A stretch of DNA of 64,000 nt from Butyribacter intestini. GTDB taxonomy: Bacteria; Bacillota; Clostridia; Lachnospirales; Lachnospiraceae. The DNA is taken from NCBI GenBank assembly GCA_001414325.1, contig LLKB01000005.1, forward strand, positions 419,060-483,059. Reading direction: 5' to 3'. The notes under the pieces were generated by a model. The model ran no database searches, was not told the DNA's origin, and was given only the letters and a program-made list of their open reading frames with translations. How positions within the stretch are numbered: position 1 is the first letter of the stretch; the number at the start of each line of letters is the position of its first letter. The position numbers and the translations under genes were made by a program. Below are positions 18,538-53,857 of the stretch, piece by piece.

Positions 18538-19896
18538 TTAAATAAGTCCCCATCCCTGTCTTTTTCCAGGAAGCTCCTCTCCATTTACCCCATCAGCGTA
18601 CTTAGTTATATATGCAATCAGCTTCTCCCCGTACATATTTTCATCATTTCTATTTACGATTCCCCACTCCATGATACACGCTGCATATCCCGAAACAAGC
18701 GGTGCCGCAAATGAAGTTCCCGTTTTTCTCACATACCCTCCTCCGTACCCTGCTGCCAAAACATCAACACCAGCCGCCACGACAAGAGGTACAAGTCTTC
18801 CGTCAGCAGTAAATCCTCGTCCCGAAAAAGCTGCCACACTTTCCGTTGTTTGATTATATGCCCCTACTGACAAAACTTTAAATGCCGTCGCCGGAATGGT
18901 TGCCGTTGTGTCTGATGACGGTCTTAAAAAGCCTGTTGACAGACCTATTGCTTCTATTGTGGGAAGCCACATATCCACAACTCCACATTTTATTTTACCC
19001 GATACCTCAAATTCAATACCCCATATACCGGGCAGCACATAATTTAAGTTTTTTCCTGCTCTAAACTGCACCTCTATAAGCTGTTTTCCATTGTATGGTG
19101 TCGGCATCACCATGACGCTGTCTATATTTTCACGCTCCGAATTTATACTCACGCTCTCCAAAATATTTATTCTCTTTCCTGATGGAGTATTTAAAAATAT
19201 TTCAAATTCATCCTGAAAATATTTCCAGATAAAAAGCCGCATATCTCTTTCATTTTCGCCTATTGCAAACTCCGTCCTGCTATTTTCCGCACTTTTCACT
19301 ATAGTCCTTACATGATGTCTTGACTCCCCCTCATTTCCTGCCGCAATAACTATCATATTTTTCCAGATACCGTTTATGTCAGCTATATAATTTTCAAACA
19401 ATGTATTTCCGTCATGTGCTCCCTCGTTCGTGCCGTAGCTTAAGTTTATGACTATTGGTTTTTGCAATTCTATCGCTTTTCTGAGTGTATAATCTATCCC
19501 CTCCATTATATCTATAGTTCTTGTATATCCTGTATTTCCATCACCCACTCTTTTTAATTCCACAACGATAAGTTCAGCCCTATAAGCACTTCCTCTTATA
19601 ATATTTCCCCTGCTGTCCGTTCCATCACCTGCCGCTATCGATGCTACCGCCGTCCCATGTCCACCCATACCATCGCTTGCGGGAACTATCTTCTGTGCAA
19701 ATTGCCTGTTTTTTGTCTCTATCGCATTGTTTATGTCCGTGCTGTCATATTCCGCACCAAAACCATAACCTGACGGGCTTCTCCCCTCGGCTGCCTCACC
19801 CTCTATATTCTGATTCCATAGGTAACTTATCCTCGTCTTTCCATCACTGTCCCTAAATGCCGGATGAAAATAATCAATCCCACCTCGTGTTATATT
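18538..19896 (-). pseudogene. 3' portion of an interrupted subtilase (S8 peptidase) gene
   Basis: Open in frame from 19896 to 18538, with no start codon before 19668. Translation opens NITRGGIDYFHPAFRDS, i.e. right after the point where a subtilase would read VDSG, and then carries catalytic His (GGHGTAVASIAAG), oxyanion Asn (IAAGNEGESRHH) and catalytic Ser (GTSFAAPLVSG). The missing prodomain and catalytic Asp are at 22072-22384. The intact protein would be a cytosolic Csp-like subtilase with an inserted jelly-roll region, a type common in spore-forming Clostridia. A protein started at 19668 would lack Asp and be inactive. Not decayed: no stops or frameshifts, so I regard it as a separated exon-like half rather than an old pseudogene. 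Confidence 0.88.
19866..19896 (-). other. Putative attR of the subtilase-interrupting element
   Basis: On the minus strand AATATAACACGAGGTGGGAT is followed by TGATTATTTTC. The segment GGGATTG is shared with attL. Element side carries AACAC, the inverted partner of GTGTT at attL; gene side encodes IDYF of the subtilase. Confidence 0.65.
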
Positions 19897-19995
19897 TTAA
19901 ATTCACAACTTTCCTGCCGCCACTGTTTTGCTCTTTGGTGCAACTGATAAATCATATATTATATTTTTTCAATAAAGACTGCATTGTCTGCAAAT

Positions 19996-20775
19996 TTATA
20001 TCTTGTGCTTTTTAATAATATTCCTTATTGTACTCTCATTCCATCTCTTTAGTTCAGCATCCTTTCCACCTTCTGTCATTATTTCACCGCTTTTCATAAC
20101 TTCTCTACTTTTCAGATATTCACCAGGAGGATTTATCCTTTCCATATAAAGCATATCTGCTATCTCTTTTATGCTTCTTCCATCATCATACATTTTTAGT
20201 ATCTGCCTGACTATTCGGTATGTCATTTCCTCTCTCCTTAAAACCCTTATATCATTTTCATATACTATCTTATAACCATATGGTGCTCTGCTGCCAAGAT
20301 AATTACCCTCTCTTTTCTTAAGTTCTTTTGCATATTTTACTTTCACCCCTATATCGTATGCGTATAGTTCATTAACGAGATTTTTAAGATTTACAGCAAA
20401 CTCCTTCTTTCCAAACATATCCGAAATCGAATCATAACCATCCGACACGGCTATAAAACGCACACCGAGCAGTGGAAATATTTTTTGCAAAAACTCACCC
20501 GTATCAATATGATTCCTGCCAAATCTTGACAGATCCTTAACTATCACACAGTCAATTTTCTTTGCAAGAATATCCTCATACATCCGCTTAAAACCCGGTC
20601 TGTCATAATTCATGCCACTCTTGCCAAAATCACTATAACACCCAATAATCTCAATATCATCCGTGACCTTTGCAAACTCTCTGCATATAAGGAACTGATT
20701 CTCAATCGACTCAGCCTTTCTCTCACTCCCCCTGACAGAAAGCCTTGCATAAATACCTGCTCTATAAATCTTCAT
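19996..20775 (-). CDS. Serine recombinase (resolvase/invertase family), short form
   Basis: 259 residues. Resolvase domain with catalytic Ser in AGIYARLSVRG and the conserved VIVKDLSRFGRNHI motif, then the start of a recombinase domain (LGSRAPYGYKIVYEND, IADMLYMERINPPGEY). It stops before the zinc-ribbon and coiled-coil region of large serine recombinases. GGGGGC before the ATG is a good ribosome site. It is the last gene inside the element splitting the subtilase and probably acts with one or both neighbouring recombinases. Whether it is active alone is uncertain. Confidence 0.88.
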   Translation of the reverse strand: MKIYRAGIYARLSVRGSERKAESIENQFLICREFAKVTDDIEIIGCYSDFGKSGMNYDRPGFKRMYEDILAKKIDCVIVKDLSRFGRNHIDTGEFLQKIFPLLGVRFIAVSDGYDSISDMFGKKEFAVNLKNLVNELYAYDIGVKVKYAKELKKREGNYLGSRAPYGYKIVYENDIRVLRREEMTYRIVRQILKMYDDGRSIKEIADMLYMERINPPGEYLKSREVMKSGEIMTEGGKDAELKRWNESTIRNIIKKHKI

Positions 20776-20796
20776 TGCGCCCCCTATTTTATATAT

Positions 20797-20995
20797 TTGT
20801 AAAACTTTCGTATATATGTAATTAAATTGTGCAACTATAACAAATAATGTAAGCAGTGCACTTCTGTCACCGTCAGCACTCAGTCAGCGTTTTTTGCTGA
20901 CTTAGTACTGCTACGAGTGACAGGTAGCGAGAGCGTGCCTGCGGTATTATTTGTTATAGCTGCACAATTAACACAACCTAGATTTAGTTTTGCAA
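20797..20995. repeat. Family A full-length hairpin repeat (about 199 bp)
   Basis: Ends TTGTAAAACT / AGTTTTGCAA; outer arms AATTGTGCAACTATAACAAA and TTTGTTATAGCTGCACAATT pair almost fully; the centre repeats CAGTCAGCGTTTTTTGCTGAC. Its right end provides the last codons and stop of the recombinase frame ending at 20984. Confidence 0.8.
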
Positions 20996-22384
20996 ACAAT
21001 TCACCTTTTCAAACAACTCCCTATCCACTATCGCAAGTTCACTCTTTTCACACCTTATCCTATCTCTCTCCTCCGTCTTAATCATTTTTTTTATCTTATA
21101 ATTCAGCTTTTTACTTTTTGACTGCACAAGCACACCTGCATATATCTCATTTGTAAGTATTCTTTTTATCATCTGCGGATACCATTTCTTTTTAACACTT
21201 TCAGTTTTTTGGAGAGCAAATGGTGTTTTATAAGCACATTCCTTGCTTTTTCTATACTCAAACGGTGTCATTATATTCATTTCATTTAATCTGTCCGCTA
21301 TCGCCTGCAATGACTTTTTATCTGCCCTTAGCATAAATATCATTTTTATTATGTCTGTTACTTTATCATCAGGTACAAGTTTCTTTTTGTCCTCAGAACT
21401 TTTCAGATAACCGTAAGGTGCAAATGCCCCAACATATTCCCCATTCCTCATGCACACCTCAAGACCGGTTCTTACTTTTAACGATATATCCCTTGAATAC
21501 TCATCATTTACTATGCTTTTCATATACATATAAAACGGCGAATATAGTTCGTTGTCACAATGCTGTGAGTCATAGCCGTCAGCAACCGATATAAAACATA
21601 CATTTTTTTTATTGAAATAAAACTTTATCATTCTTCCAACTTCTATATAATCTCTGCCAATTCTCGATAAATCTTTTACAATTATACAGTTTATAATTCC
21701 GTTTTCAATATCGCACAACAATCTTTTATACTGTGGTCTTTTGGCATCAAGTCCACTATAACCGTCATCTATATAGAAATCCTTTAAAATTATGTCTTTT
21801 CTCTTTTTAACATACTCTTCAATTATTTTCTTCTGATTGTATATGCTGTCACTGTAATATCTGTTTTCTTTTCTGTCAGCCTTGCTAAGTCTTATATACC
21901 CTGCAGCTTTATATACAATGTATTCATCAGGCACAACATTTTCATTATATATGGCAGTTTTATTATTCAATACATTTTTATCATACTCGGCATTTTTATT
22001 ACACAAAGAATTTTTACTGTATTCACCTGTTTTATTATTACTAATATATTTTTTAACACAATCCCCCGAATCCACAATCCCCACAAGTACACCTTTGCCG
22101 CTAAGCCTGTTTTCCTGTATATTCCCCTGCATTATACCAGGTTCGTTTTGCGTATCTGACGCACTATTTTTTTCCGTGGCAGATATCTTTGTTATTTCTC
22201 CCGTTGGATAAACTCTCCTCGGTTCTTCAATATATATCACCTCAGGCACATTTCTTAACTCATCAAGATATGCGGCATCTATATCCACAACTGCATATTG
22301 TGCGAGCAGTTCAGACACCTTTACATCATCTGCTATCGCCCGCACACCATCAAGACTTCCATAATATTTGACTATTACTTTCAC
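20984..22384 (-). CDS. Chimera: subtilase prodomain and catalytic-Asp motif read in frame into a serine recombinase
   Basis: Start GTG at 22384, 5 nt after GGAGG, giving MKVIVKYYGSLDG, the usual opening of a Csp-like subtilase prodomain. The subtilase part runs to KGVLVGIVDSG (catalytic Asp codon 22072-22070). The frame then crosses the insertion point into an AT-rich linker (NNKTGEYSKN...) and a serine recombinase with catalytic Ser in AAGYIRLSKADR, IIVKDLSRIGRDYI and a recombinase domain (VGAFAPYGYL, NEIYAGVLVQ), but no zinc ribbon. No ATG lies between the junction and the recombinase; a GTG at 21934 is the only plausible internal start and has no clear ribosome site. So the recombinase may be translated only as a fusion to the host gene. 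The stop comes from a repeat. Confidence 0.85.
   Translation of the reverse strand: MKVIVKYYGSLDGVRAIADDVKVSELLAQYAVVDIDAAYLDELRNVPEVIYIEEPRRVYPTGEITKISATEKNSASDTQNEPGIMQGNIQENRLSGKGVLVGIVDSGDCVKKYISNNKTGEYSKNSLCNKNAEYDKNVLNNKTAIYNENVVPDEYIVYKAAGYIRLSKADRKENRYYSDSIYNQKKIIEEYVKKRKDIILKDFYIDDGYSGLDAKRPQYKRLLCDIENGIINCIIVKDLSRIGRDYIEVGRMIKFYFNKKNVCFISVADGYDSQHCDNELYSPFYMYMKSIVNDEYSRDISLKVRTGLEVCMRNGEYVGAFAPYGYLKSSEDKKKLVPDDKVTDIIKMIFMLRADKKSLQAIADRLNEMNIMTPFEYRKSKECAYKTPFALQKTESVKKKWYPQMIKRILTNEIYAGVLVQSKSKKLNYKIKKMIKTEERDRIRCEKSELAIVDRELFEKVNCLQN
22053..22078 (-). other. Putative attL of the subtilase-interrupting element
   Basis: On the minus strand ATTGTGGATTCGGGGGATTG is followed by TGTTAA. 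Gene side encodes IVDSG; element side begins GTGTTAAAA, the inverted partner of AACAC at attR. Five Gs here versus three at attR; a product with four would read VDSGIDYFHP. Confidence 0.65.
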
Positions 22385-22402
22385 ATCTGCCTCCAAAATA
22401 TC

Positions 22403-23617
22403 TTACTTTTTTATACGCCAGTATATGATAACTTTTTCAGGCTCACTGACATATATCCTCTTTACAAATATATTCAGCAACATCTCTCTGTCTACATCTG
22501 TTTTTATATTTTGGCAAAGTTTTTCAAAAAGCTCAATCTCTCTGTTTCCTATCTGCCCTGCGGTCTTTTTTTCTCTGTCACCACAACATATCTCACCATA
22601 AAATACCACCTTAAGCCTGTCAAAAAAAAGCTGATACAACCTCCCGGTCATTATCAGCTTTTTTTCTTTTCCATTACATTTTCTGCAGCATAGCCAGCCT
22701 TTCTTTGCCCTGTCTGAACAAAGAGCATTTCCACATATCCCACATTTTGTAATACCGTGAAAAATATGTCTTGCATTGTTTTTTCTGTGACTTTTTCCAT
22801 AATATCTCACTATATCATCGGACAGCATCGACTCATCAATGACTGCTATGTCGTTTTTATCATCTGACACCATTTTCCACTGCTCAGGCATTTGTTTTAC
22901 CCGCCTTTTTAATGGAAGAGACTCGATTTCATATCTGTGCCACACATGAAATCCAAGATATGCTGGCTCATGCAATATCCTCCACACCTGTGATACTGTC
23001 ATATCATATAATTTCGAGATTTCTTCGTATGTACTTCCCTCCTTACGCCTTTTATAGATATTTCTGATAAGTTCAGCCTTGTCTTTACGACACACTACTT
23101 TTGAATCTTTTATCTCATACCCAAACGGCAGTTTCGCTACGGCATACTCTCCCGAACTTTTCTTTGCTTCAAGTGAACACCTGACCTTCCTTGAAATATC
23201 ACTGCAATAAAATTCATTAAACAGCGTCTTAAACGGATATATTATACCGGTGTTTTCATCACTCAGACTGTCATAGCCGTCAAGCACTGCAATAAACCTT
23301 ATCTGCTTTAAAGGAAAATATTTTTCCCTCAGTTCAGATATAAGAAGATGATCCCTGCTAAGCCTTGAAAAATCTTTTACTATTACAGTATCTATTTTCT
23401 CAAGTTCCACCCATGCAAGCATCTTCATAAATGAAGGTCTTTTCCTGTCTGTTCCACTGTAACCGTCATCCGTAAACTCATGTATATCTTCCTGTTCGCC
23501 ACAAATGGCATTATCAGAAACATAACTTCTTAAAAGAAACAACTGATTTTCAATAGTATTGCTTACCTTTTGCACTCTCTTATCCTTTTTTGATATACGG
23601 GCATATAAGGCTATCAC
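22403..23617 (-). CDS. Large serine recombinase with zinc ribbon
   Basis: 404 residues from GTG at 23617, chosen because GGAGG lies 5 nt upstream (a TTG 15 nt earlier is less likely). Resolvase domain with catalytic Ser in IALYARISKKDK and VIVKDFSRLSRDHL; recombinase domain (AKLPFGYEI, EPAYLGFHVW); zinc beta-ribbon CGICGNALC...CCRKC near residue 310; helical C-terminus. It ends 18 bp before the subtilase start, so all three recombinases and both subtilase halves are in one direction and could share a transcript. It lies outside the 2.2 kb insertion. It is the only one of the three with the full DNA-binding region, making it the best candidate for the active integrase/excisionase. Confidence 0.88.
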   Translation of the reverse strand: MIALYARISKKDKRVQKVSNTIENQLFLLRSYVSDNAICGEQEDIHEFTDDGYSGTDRKRPSFMKMLAWVELEKIDTVIVKDFSRLSRDHLLISELREKYFPLKQIRFIAVLDGYDSLSDENTGIIYPFKTLFNEFYCSDISRKVRCSLEAKKSSGEYAVAKLPFGYEIKDSKVVCRKDKAELIRNIYKRRKEGSTYEEISKLYDMTVSQVWRILHEPAYLGFHVWHRYEIESLPLKRRVKQMPEQWKMVSDDKNDIAVIDESMLSDDIVRYYGKSHRKNNARHIFHGITKCGICGNALCSDRAKKGWLCCRKCNGKEKKLIMTGRLYQLFFDRLKVVFYGEICCGDREKKTAGQIGNREIELFEKLCQNIKTDVDREMLLNIFVKRIYVSEPEKVIIYWRIKK

Positions 23618-23660
23618 TGTTTTCCTCCGCAATATGTTTCCTTATTATATATTATGTTTT

Positions 23661-53789: not shown

Positions 53790-53857
53790 CCTTTGTGAAA
53801 CTGTCTTTATCCTTGATAAATTGCACAAATATAACAAATAATGTTTCACAATAACCT
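53790..53857. repeat. Family A short hairpin repeat
   Basis: TTTGTGAAACTG ... TGTTTCACAATAACC ends enclose CTTGATAAATTGCACAAATA and TAACAAATAATG, as in the outer arms at 20797 and 59325. It lies upstream of the small acidic gene. Confidence 0.7.

Follow-up and report, generated by a model that had tools for sequence, protein, structure and literature searches.

The DNA stretch analysed here (the window; 64,000 nt of Butyribacter intestini contig LLKB01000005.1, positions 419,060–483,059) contains a subtilase-type protease gene, designated csp1, which is split into two halves by an element of approximately 2.2 kb encoding serine recombinases. This raises the question of whether the gene has been inactivated by the insertion or is kept in pieces that can be rejoined. 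The analysis suggests that the interruption is probably a domesticated, sporulation-linked gene-intervening element of the skin/gin type, inserted into a CspB-type germination protease gene. On the best reading of the sequence data, it would be part of a set of such elements spread over the germination pathway.

Identity and organization of the interrupted csp1 gene

Direct reading of the sequence placed the interruption immediately after the catalytic-Asp motif VDSG. As claimed in the original prediction for this locus, the 5′ half ends with ...KGVLVGIVDSG, the 3′ half begins with GIDYFHPAFRDS, and neither half contains stop codons or frameshifts; approximately 2.2 kb separate the two halves. 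A Pfam search identified the CspB prodomain (PF18425, E = 9.9e-14) in the 5′ half; the 3′ half contains an S8 protease domain (PF00082) with the invariant GHGT and GTS motifs. The best matches of the 3′ half among solved structures are a germination protease (9sj6, E = 2e-76) and CspB (4i0w, E = 5e-61), and matches of csp1 to the NCBIfam CspBA/CspC models were below the model cut-offs. Judged from these domains, the csp1 product is a CspB-type spore-germination protease with a CspB prodomain and an S8 domain containing the Asp, His and Ser residues. Relatives were searched for in 28 genomes of the genus, including that of the window itself (G000). The sporulation protein SpoIVA was detected above cut-off in the window's own genome and in 26 of the 28 genomes; no SpoIVA match was found in the assembly of the sister species G013 (63% complete).

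The 5′ half of csp1 is open, in frame, into the first recombinase gene of the element (rec2), forming a continuous open reading frame (ORF), and the equivalent fused ORF of G013 (461 amino acids, aa) is likewise in frame. The earliest ATG, GTG or TTG codon of the 3′ half is at position 19668, approximately 70 codons inside, and the 3′ half could therefore not be made whole as a protein of its own from such a start. Since the 5′ half runs into rec2 and the 3′ half has no early start, rejoining of the DNA, rather than production of two proteins, would be the natural route to the protease. The coordinates of the features of the locus are presented in Table 1.

Table 1. Features of the csp1 locus (positions within the window).
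Feature	Position	Strand	Remarks
csp1, whole split gene	22384-18538	-	start ~22384, ribosome-binding site GGAGG
csp1 5′ half: CspB prodomain and start of S8 catalytic domain through VDSG	22064..22384	-	PF18425
csp1 3′ half: remaining S8 protease with catalytic His and Ser	18538..19879	-	PF00082, PDB matches
470-aa continuous ORF: csp1 5′ half in frame into rec2	20984..22396	-	ORF reading
rec1, third serine recombinase, outside the element, directly upstream of csp1	22403..23632	-	likely GTG start ~23617
rec2, Resolvase and Recombinase domains	20984..21934	-	21934 = candidate GTG start inside the element
rec3, short serine recombinase, 259 aa, class B	19996..20775	-	Pfam, tree
Hairpin between rec2 and rec3	20825-20969		145 bp; 24-nt arms, one mismatch
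Predicted attL, core GG 22066-22065	22055..22076	-	sequence reading
Predicted attR, core GG 19881-19880	19870..19891	-	sequence reading

Predicted attachment sites and junction

The ends of the element resemble attachment (att) sites. The letters of the predicted attL are GATTCGGGGGATTGTGTT, with five G, and those of attR are AACACGAGGTGGGATTGATT, with three G; GGGATTG is common to both, and AACAC and GTGTT are placed on the element side, each of these details agreeing with the original prediction. Given a GG core, the predicted site of the element itself is AACACGAGGT-GG-GGATTGTGTT, in which the outer five pairs are complementary and GG is central. This arm complementarity was matched by 23 of 100000 same-letter shuffles and by 7 of the 4396 GG-centred 22-mers of the window, both tests having been devised after the arms had been seen. 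The csp1 halves are predicted to rejoin in frame at the short common GG core, with the junction reading GAT-TCG-GGG-ATT-GAT; the frame restoration proposed earlier thus holds as a prediction.

Serine recombinases of the csp1 locus

Two recombinase genes, rec2 and rec3, are located inside the element, and the third, rec1, stands beside it and stops just before the csp1 ribosome-binding site. PF00239 and PF07508 were detected in each of the three products. Large serine recombinases typically contain a long C-terminal part with a zinc ribbon and a coiled coil; the rec1 product (409 aa) contains a cysteine-rich stretch, with no zinc-ribbon match. No phage structural or replication genes were found among the long minus-strand ORFs of the element, which are rec2 and rec3 only (opposite-strand and short ORFs were not searched), and the element of the window carries no transfer genes.

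The order of genes is the same in G013 (rec1, csp1 5′ half in frame into rec2, rec3, csp1 3′ half), with rec1, the fused ORF and rec3 on one strand in both genomes. The rec2 and rec3 genes overlap in G013 and are separated in the window by 208 bp containing the 145-bp hairpin. Arms similar to those of this hairpin (3 mismatches) are also present at positions 53823 and 59359 of the window, and it is perhaps a small dispersed repeat. In the short stretch before rec1 (23633-23660), a CATAATATA block is common to the window and G013. It resembles the -10 sequences of mother-cell sigma factors and is not claimed as a promoter of rec1, such a block being too common in AT-rich DNA.

Age of the csp1 interruption and selection on its parts

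The search of relatives for the same insertion, as proposed with the original prediction, identified it with the same layout in G013, a contig of which is letter-identical to Eubacterium sp. MSJ-13 NZ_JAHLQE010000109.1. The ratios of nonsynonymous to synonymous substitution rates (dN/dS) between the window and G013 were 0.13 for the csp1 5′ half, 0.10 for the 3′ half, 0.18 for rec1 and 0.16 for rec2; for rec3, dS was saturated and the corresponding ratio of proportions (pN/pS) was 0.29. Independent decay of the halves, which had been named as an observation that would speak against restoration, was not seen. For comparison, intact csp1 was analysed in nine further members of the genus, using the eight closest pairs: dN/dS was 0.11-0.21 for the N-terminal part in five pairs, the remaining three having saturated dS, and 0.09-0.15 for the C-terminal part. 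By these ratios, both csp1 halves, rec1 and rec2 are under purifying selection.

Since the layout is shared with G013, the interruption is old and predates the split of the two species. Of the earlier wording, “programmed or recently reversible”, the skin-like part is supported and “recently” is not; a recent insertion into csp1 is ruled out by the selection on both halves.

Among the 25 genus genomes with csp1, the gene is split at the VDSG codon in seven (G000, G001, G007, G008, G013, G018 and G021) and uninterrupted in 18, two of which (G009 and G011) run into contig ends; csp1 was not found in G017, G019 and G022 of the 28 genomes searched. A further contig with a split csp1 (G002:C154) was rejected as a likely contaminant, given its 99.9% match over 3034 bp to G018:C142, and G002 has an intact copy of its own. 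Of the best 80 named csp loci among the matches listed, 74 are full length, five are split and one is frameshift-like. Four of the five split loci belong to genus members; in L119, the remaining one, a serine recombinase is encoded next to the 3′ half. The frameshift-like case, L142 from Coprococcus comes, appears to be disrupted by a frameshift soon after the Asp motif and not by an element. The same break in many genus genomes rules out a single odd insertion. Uninterrupted relatives, a sister with the same insertion, undecayed halves, a CspB-type gene and SpoIVA together support the skin-like logic that had been suggested for the locus.

A second interrupted csp gene

Of the 25 genus genomes with csp2, 14 have this gene interrupted at the same codon as csp1 and 11 have it intact; it was not found in G005, G022 and G024 of the 28 searched. 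The 5′ half was located in 12 of the 14 split cases (not in G019 and G025) and is open in all 12. From the junction onwards the 3′ half is open, and the stop codon observed in four of the 14 belongs to the element arm that immediately precedes the junction. The split csp2 halves, like those of the split sleC gene described below, had dN/dS of 0.02-0.31 in the closest pairs that could be measured.

In the window's genome, csp2 is split at this codon by a 5-kb block without a serine recombinase (L071, G000:C5:1280500-1299000), which encodes MoxR, DUF58, transglutaminase-like and class II aldolase proteins. A block of approximately 5 kb is present in eight species (G000, G001, G002, G007, G013, G014, G018 and G021), and contains genes for a MoxR-type ATPase, a DUF58-type protein and a transglutaminase-like protein, followed in five of the eight by a class II aldolase gene. 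No serine recombinase match was obtained for nine of the 14 csp2 elements (these eight blocks and a 1.6-kb element of G008), whereas the other five gave such matches. The csp2 elements of G004 and G006 are 18.5 and 20.7 kb long, with three recombinases each. Those of G008 and G023 (L074 and L077) carry a gene that, judged by its sequence, is probably bacteriohemerythrin-like; the G023 element also carries a class B recombinase.

Interruption of the cortex-lytic enzyme gene sleC

Short recombinases in genomes with split csp genes were followed to their locations, which led to sleC. For an intact relative of this gene, a match to 9h68, the pre-pro form of the spore cortex-lytic enzyme, was obtained (E = 5e-127). 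In Clostridium, Csp proteases activate SleC. Fifteen of the 24 genus genomes with sleC have the gene broken: ten at site 1, after VVIP (G000, G001, G002, G003, G011, G014, G015, G018, G021 and G025), and five elsewhere (G006, G008, G019, G023 and G027). The gene is in one frame in nine genomes, the G017 copy having stop codons in its N-terminal part, and is absent or weakly matched in four. The breaks elsewhere correspond to loci L186, L206 and L208-L212, and the G023 halves are 2.3 kb apart.

Eight of the ten site-1 loci contain two short recombinases, and one each was found in the stretches fetched from G002 and G000. In the window's genome (L168, G000:C1:1498000-1517000), the sleC element carries, besides its one serine recombinase, genes for an alpha/beta hydrolase, a DUF6320 protein and a protein of approximately 430 aa, whose relative in G014 weakly matches a WS/DGAT model. 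No intact copy of csp1, csp2 or sleC was found in the window's assembly, in which all three are split. In the three sleC elements read (L019, L024 and L029, from G001, G014 and G021), similar ORFs of approximately 80 aa are located upstream of the recombinases; the G001 copy has no Pfam match, and these ORFs are candidates for a directionality factor or regulator. In locus L184 (G025:C17), sleC is apparently split twice: the first break contains two recombinases, and a further one directly follows the middle piece. The G025 assembly contains two further 5′ pieces of sleC and may be mixed.

A family sample of 200 genomes, 132 of which have a sleC match, revealed at least 17 more genomes with sleC broken at two further codons. 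Genome G156 was left out of this count. In all seven of the further breaks that were fetched (L180-L183 and L192-L194, from other genera of the family), a more distant serine recombinase is present between the pieces or next to them, although only weakly in the case of G186.

Similarity of csp2 and sleC arms and origin of the recombinases

The csp2 and sleC elements both tend to carry ACACCAGC-GG and TGGTGT arms. The arms were compared for eight species on either side of csp2 and nine on either side of sleC, with sleC read on the opposite strand. Within 12 nt of the core, mean between-species identity was 0.84 (left) and 0.69 (right) for csp2 and 0.78 and 0.79 for sleC, and it was 0.32-0.38 in the next 18 nt. 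Within one genome, csp2 and sleC arms agree in 8-11 of 12 positions on the left (six genomes) and 6-11 of 12 on the right (five genomes), and in 2-6 of the next 12 nt. The target cores of the three genes also agree: those of csp1 (GATTCGGGGATTGAT) and csp2 (GATACGGGGATAGAC) are predicted, and that of sleC (ATATTCGGGGATTAC) was seen empty in G011. We infer from these arms and cores that one recombinase set would serve both csp2 and sleC. Because eight recombinase-less csp2 elements keep arms like those of the recombinase-bearing sleC elements, action of the recombinases on them in trans is likely. The similar core [T/A]-C-G-GGGAT occurs in sleC away from an active site, and for this reason the active-site codon of the csp genes may have been chosen for its DNA letters.

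A tree of 48 recombinases, for which the software warned of long branches, recovered a firm class B (support 100/99) containing rec3, the second recombinase of the sleC elements and one recombinase of the large elements. Class A, comprising the first sleC-element recombinase and another recombinase of the large elements, was weak (87/64). Class A members of large elements match rec2 best in BLAST comparisons, and the assignment of rec2 as a firm member of this class was dropped, the tree leaving its fork open. The three-recombinase elements in csp genes of G001, G004, G006 and G025 look like the mobile kin.

Empty and occupied sites

Both forms of sleC are present in the G011 assembly, the one case in which an empty site was seen. 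In contig C6 the 5′ half is joined to the 3′ half, and in contig C78 the 3′ half adjoins the element. The two contigs have in common 58 identical bp of the 3′ half, ending exactly at the GGGG core, and the 5′ end of the empty junction has no other place in the assembly. Excision and strain mixture both fit these two forms. Genome G156, with an exact 141-bp contig overlap, was rejected as a second case, since it provides two places only and no element contig.

The window's genome contains 13 Resolvase matches, four of which are rec1-3 and the sleC recombinase. Five other recombinase places of this genome have phage-like, transposon-like or unclear contexts, and an inspection by eye, which was not exhaustive, revealed nothing resembling a further split spore gene in them.

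Proposed mechanism and alternative explanations

The following mechanism is proposed. During sporulation, rec1 and csp1 would be transcribed, and the same transcript would produce the recombinases. These would cut both GG cores and free a circle of approximately 2.2 kb with rec2 and rec3, so that an uninterrupted csp1 would stand behind rec1. This would take place in a cell that does not pass on its genome, probably the mother cell, and the split copy would remain in the forespore. The csp1 lock may be self-triggering, given that reading on from the 5′ half leads into a recombinase by which the gene would be restored. Excision of the csp2 element, for which no serine recombinase is encoded within it, is probably a further task of the sleC recombinase. 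A mobile element that encoded several serine recombinases and had a target like [T/A]-C-G-GGGAT is the probable ancestor. In the widest form of this proposal, to which we give an even chance, the germination pathway of the genus would be locked at the DNA level in many species, csp and sleC being inherited as separate pieces and joined in spore-building cells alone, by domesticated serine recombinases that act partly in trans.

Several results weigh against a sporulation-linked element. The rec2 (approximately 316 aa) and rec3 (259 aa) products are too short for the C-terminal part that large serine recombinases usually have, and no Pfam domain of that kind was detected in them. Neither rec2, at the open A/B fork of the tree, nor rec1, on a long branch with its G013 copy, is placed by the tree. 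The hairpin in the 208-bp gap might end transcription. No directionality factor was identified in the csp1 element, where no systematic look for an ORF of approximately 80 aa was taken. The sleC element of the window's genome has a single recombinase, compared with two at eight of the ten site-1 loci; its right arm agrees with that of csp2 in 6 of 12 positions against 5 of 12 in the control, the weakest case, and no serine recombinase was found in the stretches fetched around the five sleC breaks at other sites of the genus. G011 is a metagenome assembly, so that its empty and occupied sleC could come from two strains. No empty csp1 site was found in the window's own assembly with 3 mismatches allowed, and no excised-circle site in viral_contigs. 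An assembly with occupied csp1 alone is what is expected of vegetative DNA, and also of an inert element.

The most serious rival, although rather improbable, is that csp and sleC form a hot spot for mobile elements, which would repeatedly enter att-like sequences and occasionally leave for transfer, tolerated by the host and free of developmental control. The large elements (18.5 and 20.7 kb in csp2 of G004 and G006, approximately 26 kb in csp1 of G021) would fit such traffic, as would the four different codons at which sleC is hit across the family and the serine-integrase triplets described for streptococcal integrative and conjugative elements (ICEs; PMC4701971). It accounts less well for a 2.2-kb element without transfer genes that two species have retained, with purifying selection on those parts that could be measured, for eight csp2 elements that lack a serine recombinase yet keep att arms, or for three interrupted germination genes in one genome. 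That the insertion simply killed csp1 and nothing restores it is quite unlikely. The missing empty site would agree with a dead gene, and decay-like states do occur in a few relatives, as in the frameshift-like break of Coprococcus comes L142 and the stop codons in the N-terminal part of G017 sleC; however, the split csp1 halves have dN/dS ratios similar to those of intact genes, the low ratios of the csp2 and sleC halves point the same way, and so do the open csp2 5′ halves (12 of 14 located) and the 3′ halves open from the junction. Moreover, csp1, csp2 and sleC would all have to be dead in a genome that keeps SpoIVA.

Phase variation, in which the element would leave and return in vegetative cells so that the spores of some lineages germinate differently, appears very unlikely. 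An excised 2.2-kb circle without replication genes should, on general grounds, be lost, and serine integrases are generally known to need a further factor to change direction, even though recombinases are encoded beside csp1 and both sleC forms occur in one metagenome assembly (G011). Hardly any weight can be given to the idea that the two csp1 halves function as separate polypeptides or join at the protein level: the conservation of both halves would agree with it, but the 3′ half has no ATG, GTG or TTG for approximately 70 codons, the DNA junction has att-like sites, and one-piece genes are the rule among the relatives listed.

If the sporulation-linked reading is true, annotation may label gut spore formers as germination-deficient when their genes are simply split, and mobile elements would have been turned into a developmental switch over a pathway.

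Comparison with known gene-intervening elements

A search by titles and the beginnings of abstracts, in literature mostly without subscription papers and without preprints, found no paper on split csp or sleC genes. The closest system is gin, a non-phage element with three serine recombinases, located in gerE of Bacillus cereus ATCC10987 and excised during sporulation with restoration of the gene; it is 28.6 kb long with 31 genes, has the single target gerE, and its excision is attributed to GirC plus GirX (PMC5595907). A split sporulation gene, three serine recombinases and a short common core are features of the csp1 case as well. In contrast to gin, the csp1 element is 2.2 kb long, rec2 is read in frame from the split gene, one recombinase is outside the element, and two more genes are split. 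The skin element in sigK and SPbeta in spsM are prophages or prophage-like, and their removal during sporulation rebuilds the split gene (PMC5025042, PMC4191935), with one site-specific recombinase per element (PMC5595907). They differ from the present case in this prophage nature and in their target genes, the target here being a csp gene and not sigK.

The yin element in yabG of Clostridium botulinum V73, reported as unique to a single strain, is prophage-like, and its integrated and excised forms coexist in culture; YabG processes CspBA and pre-pro-SleC in C. difficile (PMC10747680). It thus resembles the csp1 element in splitting a spore protease gene, and differs in being prophage-like and in targeting another gene of the wider pathway. 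The phage phi3T in kamA, where excision during sporulation rebuilds the gene and recombination units are exchangeable between elements (PMC6957869), is SP-beta-like and, unlike the csp1 element, resides in a gene of another kind. Streptococcal ICEs carry three tandem serine recombinases that cluster by module position, and insert into mutT, traG and hsdM (PMC4701971). The large elements described here show such position-wise clustering as well, in their recombinase classes A, B and C; the ICEs differ in being conjugative, with no developmental role given in the excerpt of that paper.

Judged by the sequence-level features it has in common with skin, gin and yin, whose defining behaviour is excision timed to sporulation, the csp1 element would work like them, and differs in its size, target, in-frame recombinase, outside recombinase and multi-gene layout. 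Each of the gene-intervening elements found in the literature is a single insert in a single sporulation gene. What is new here is that three genes of one genome seem to be interrupted, those of a Csp protease, another Csp protein and the cortex-lytic enzyme, by elements that are small and under selection, with one recombinase likely serving two loci. Recombinase sets that are compact and use short att sites are a further indication of these data.

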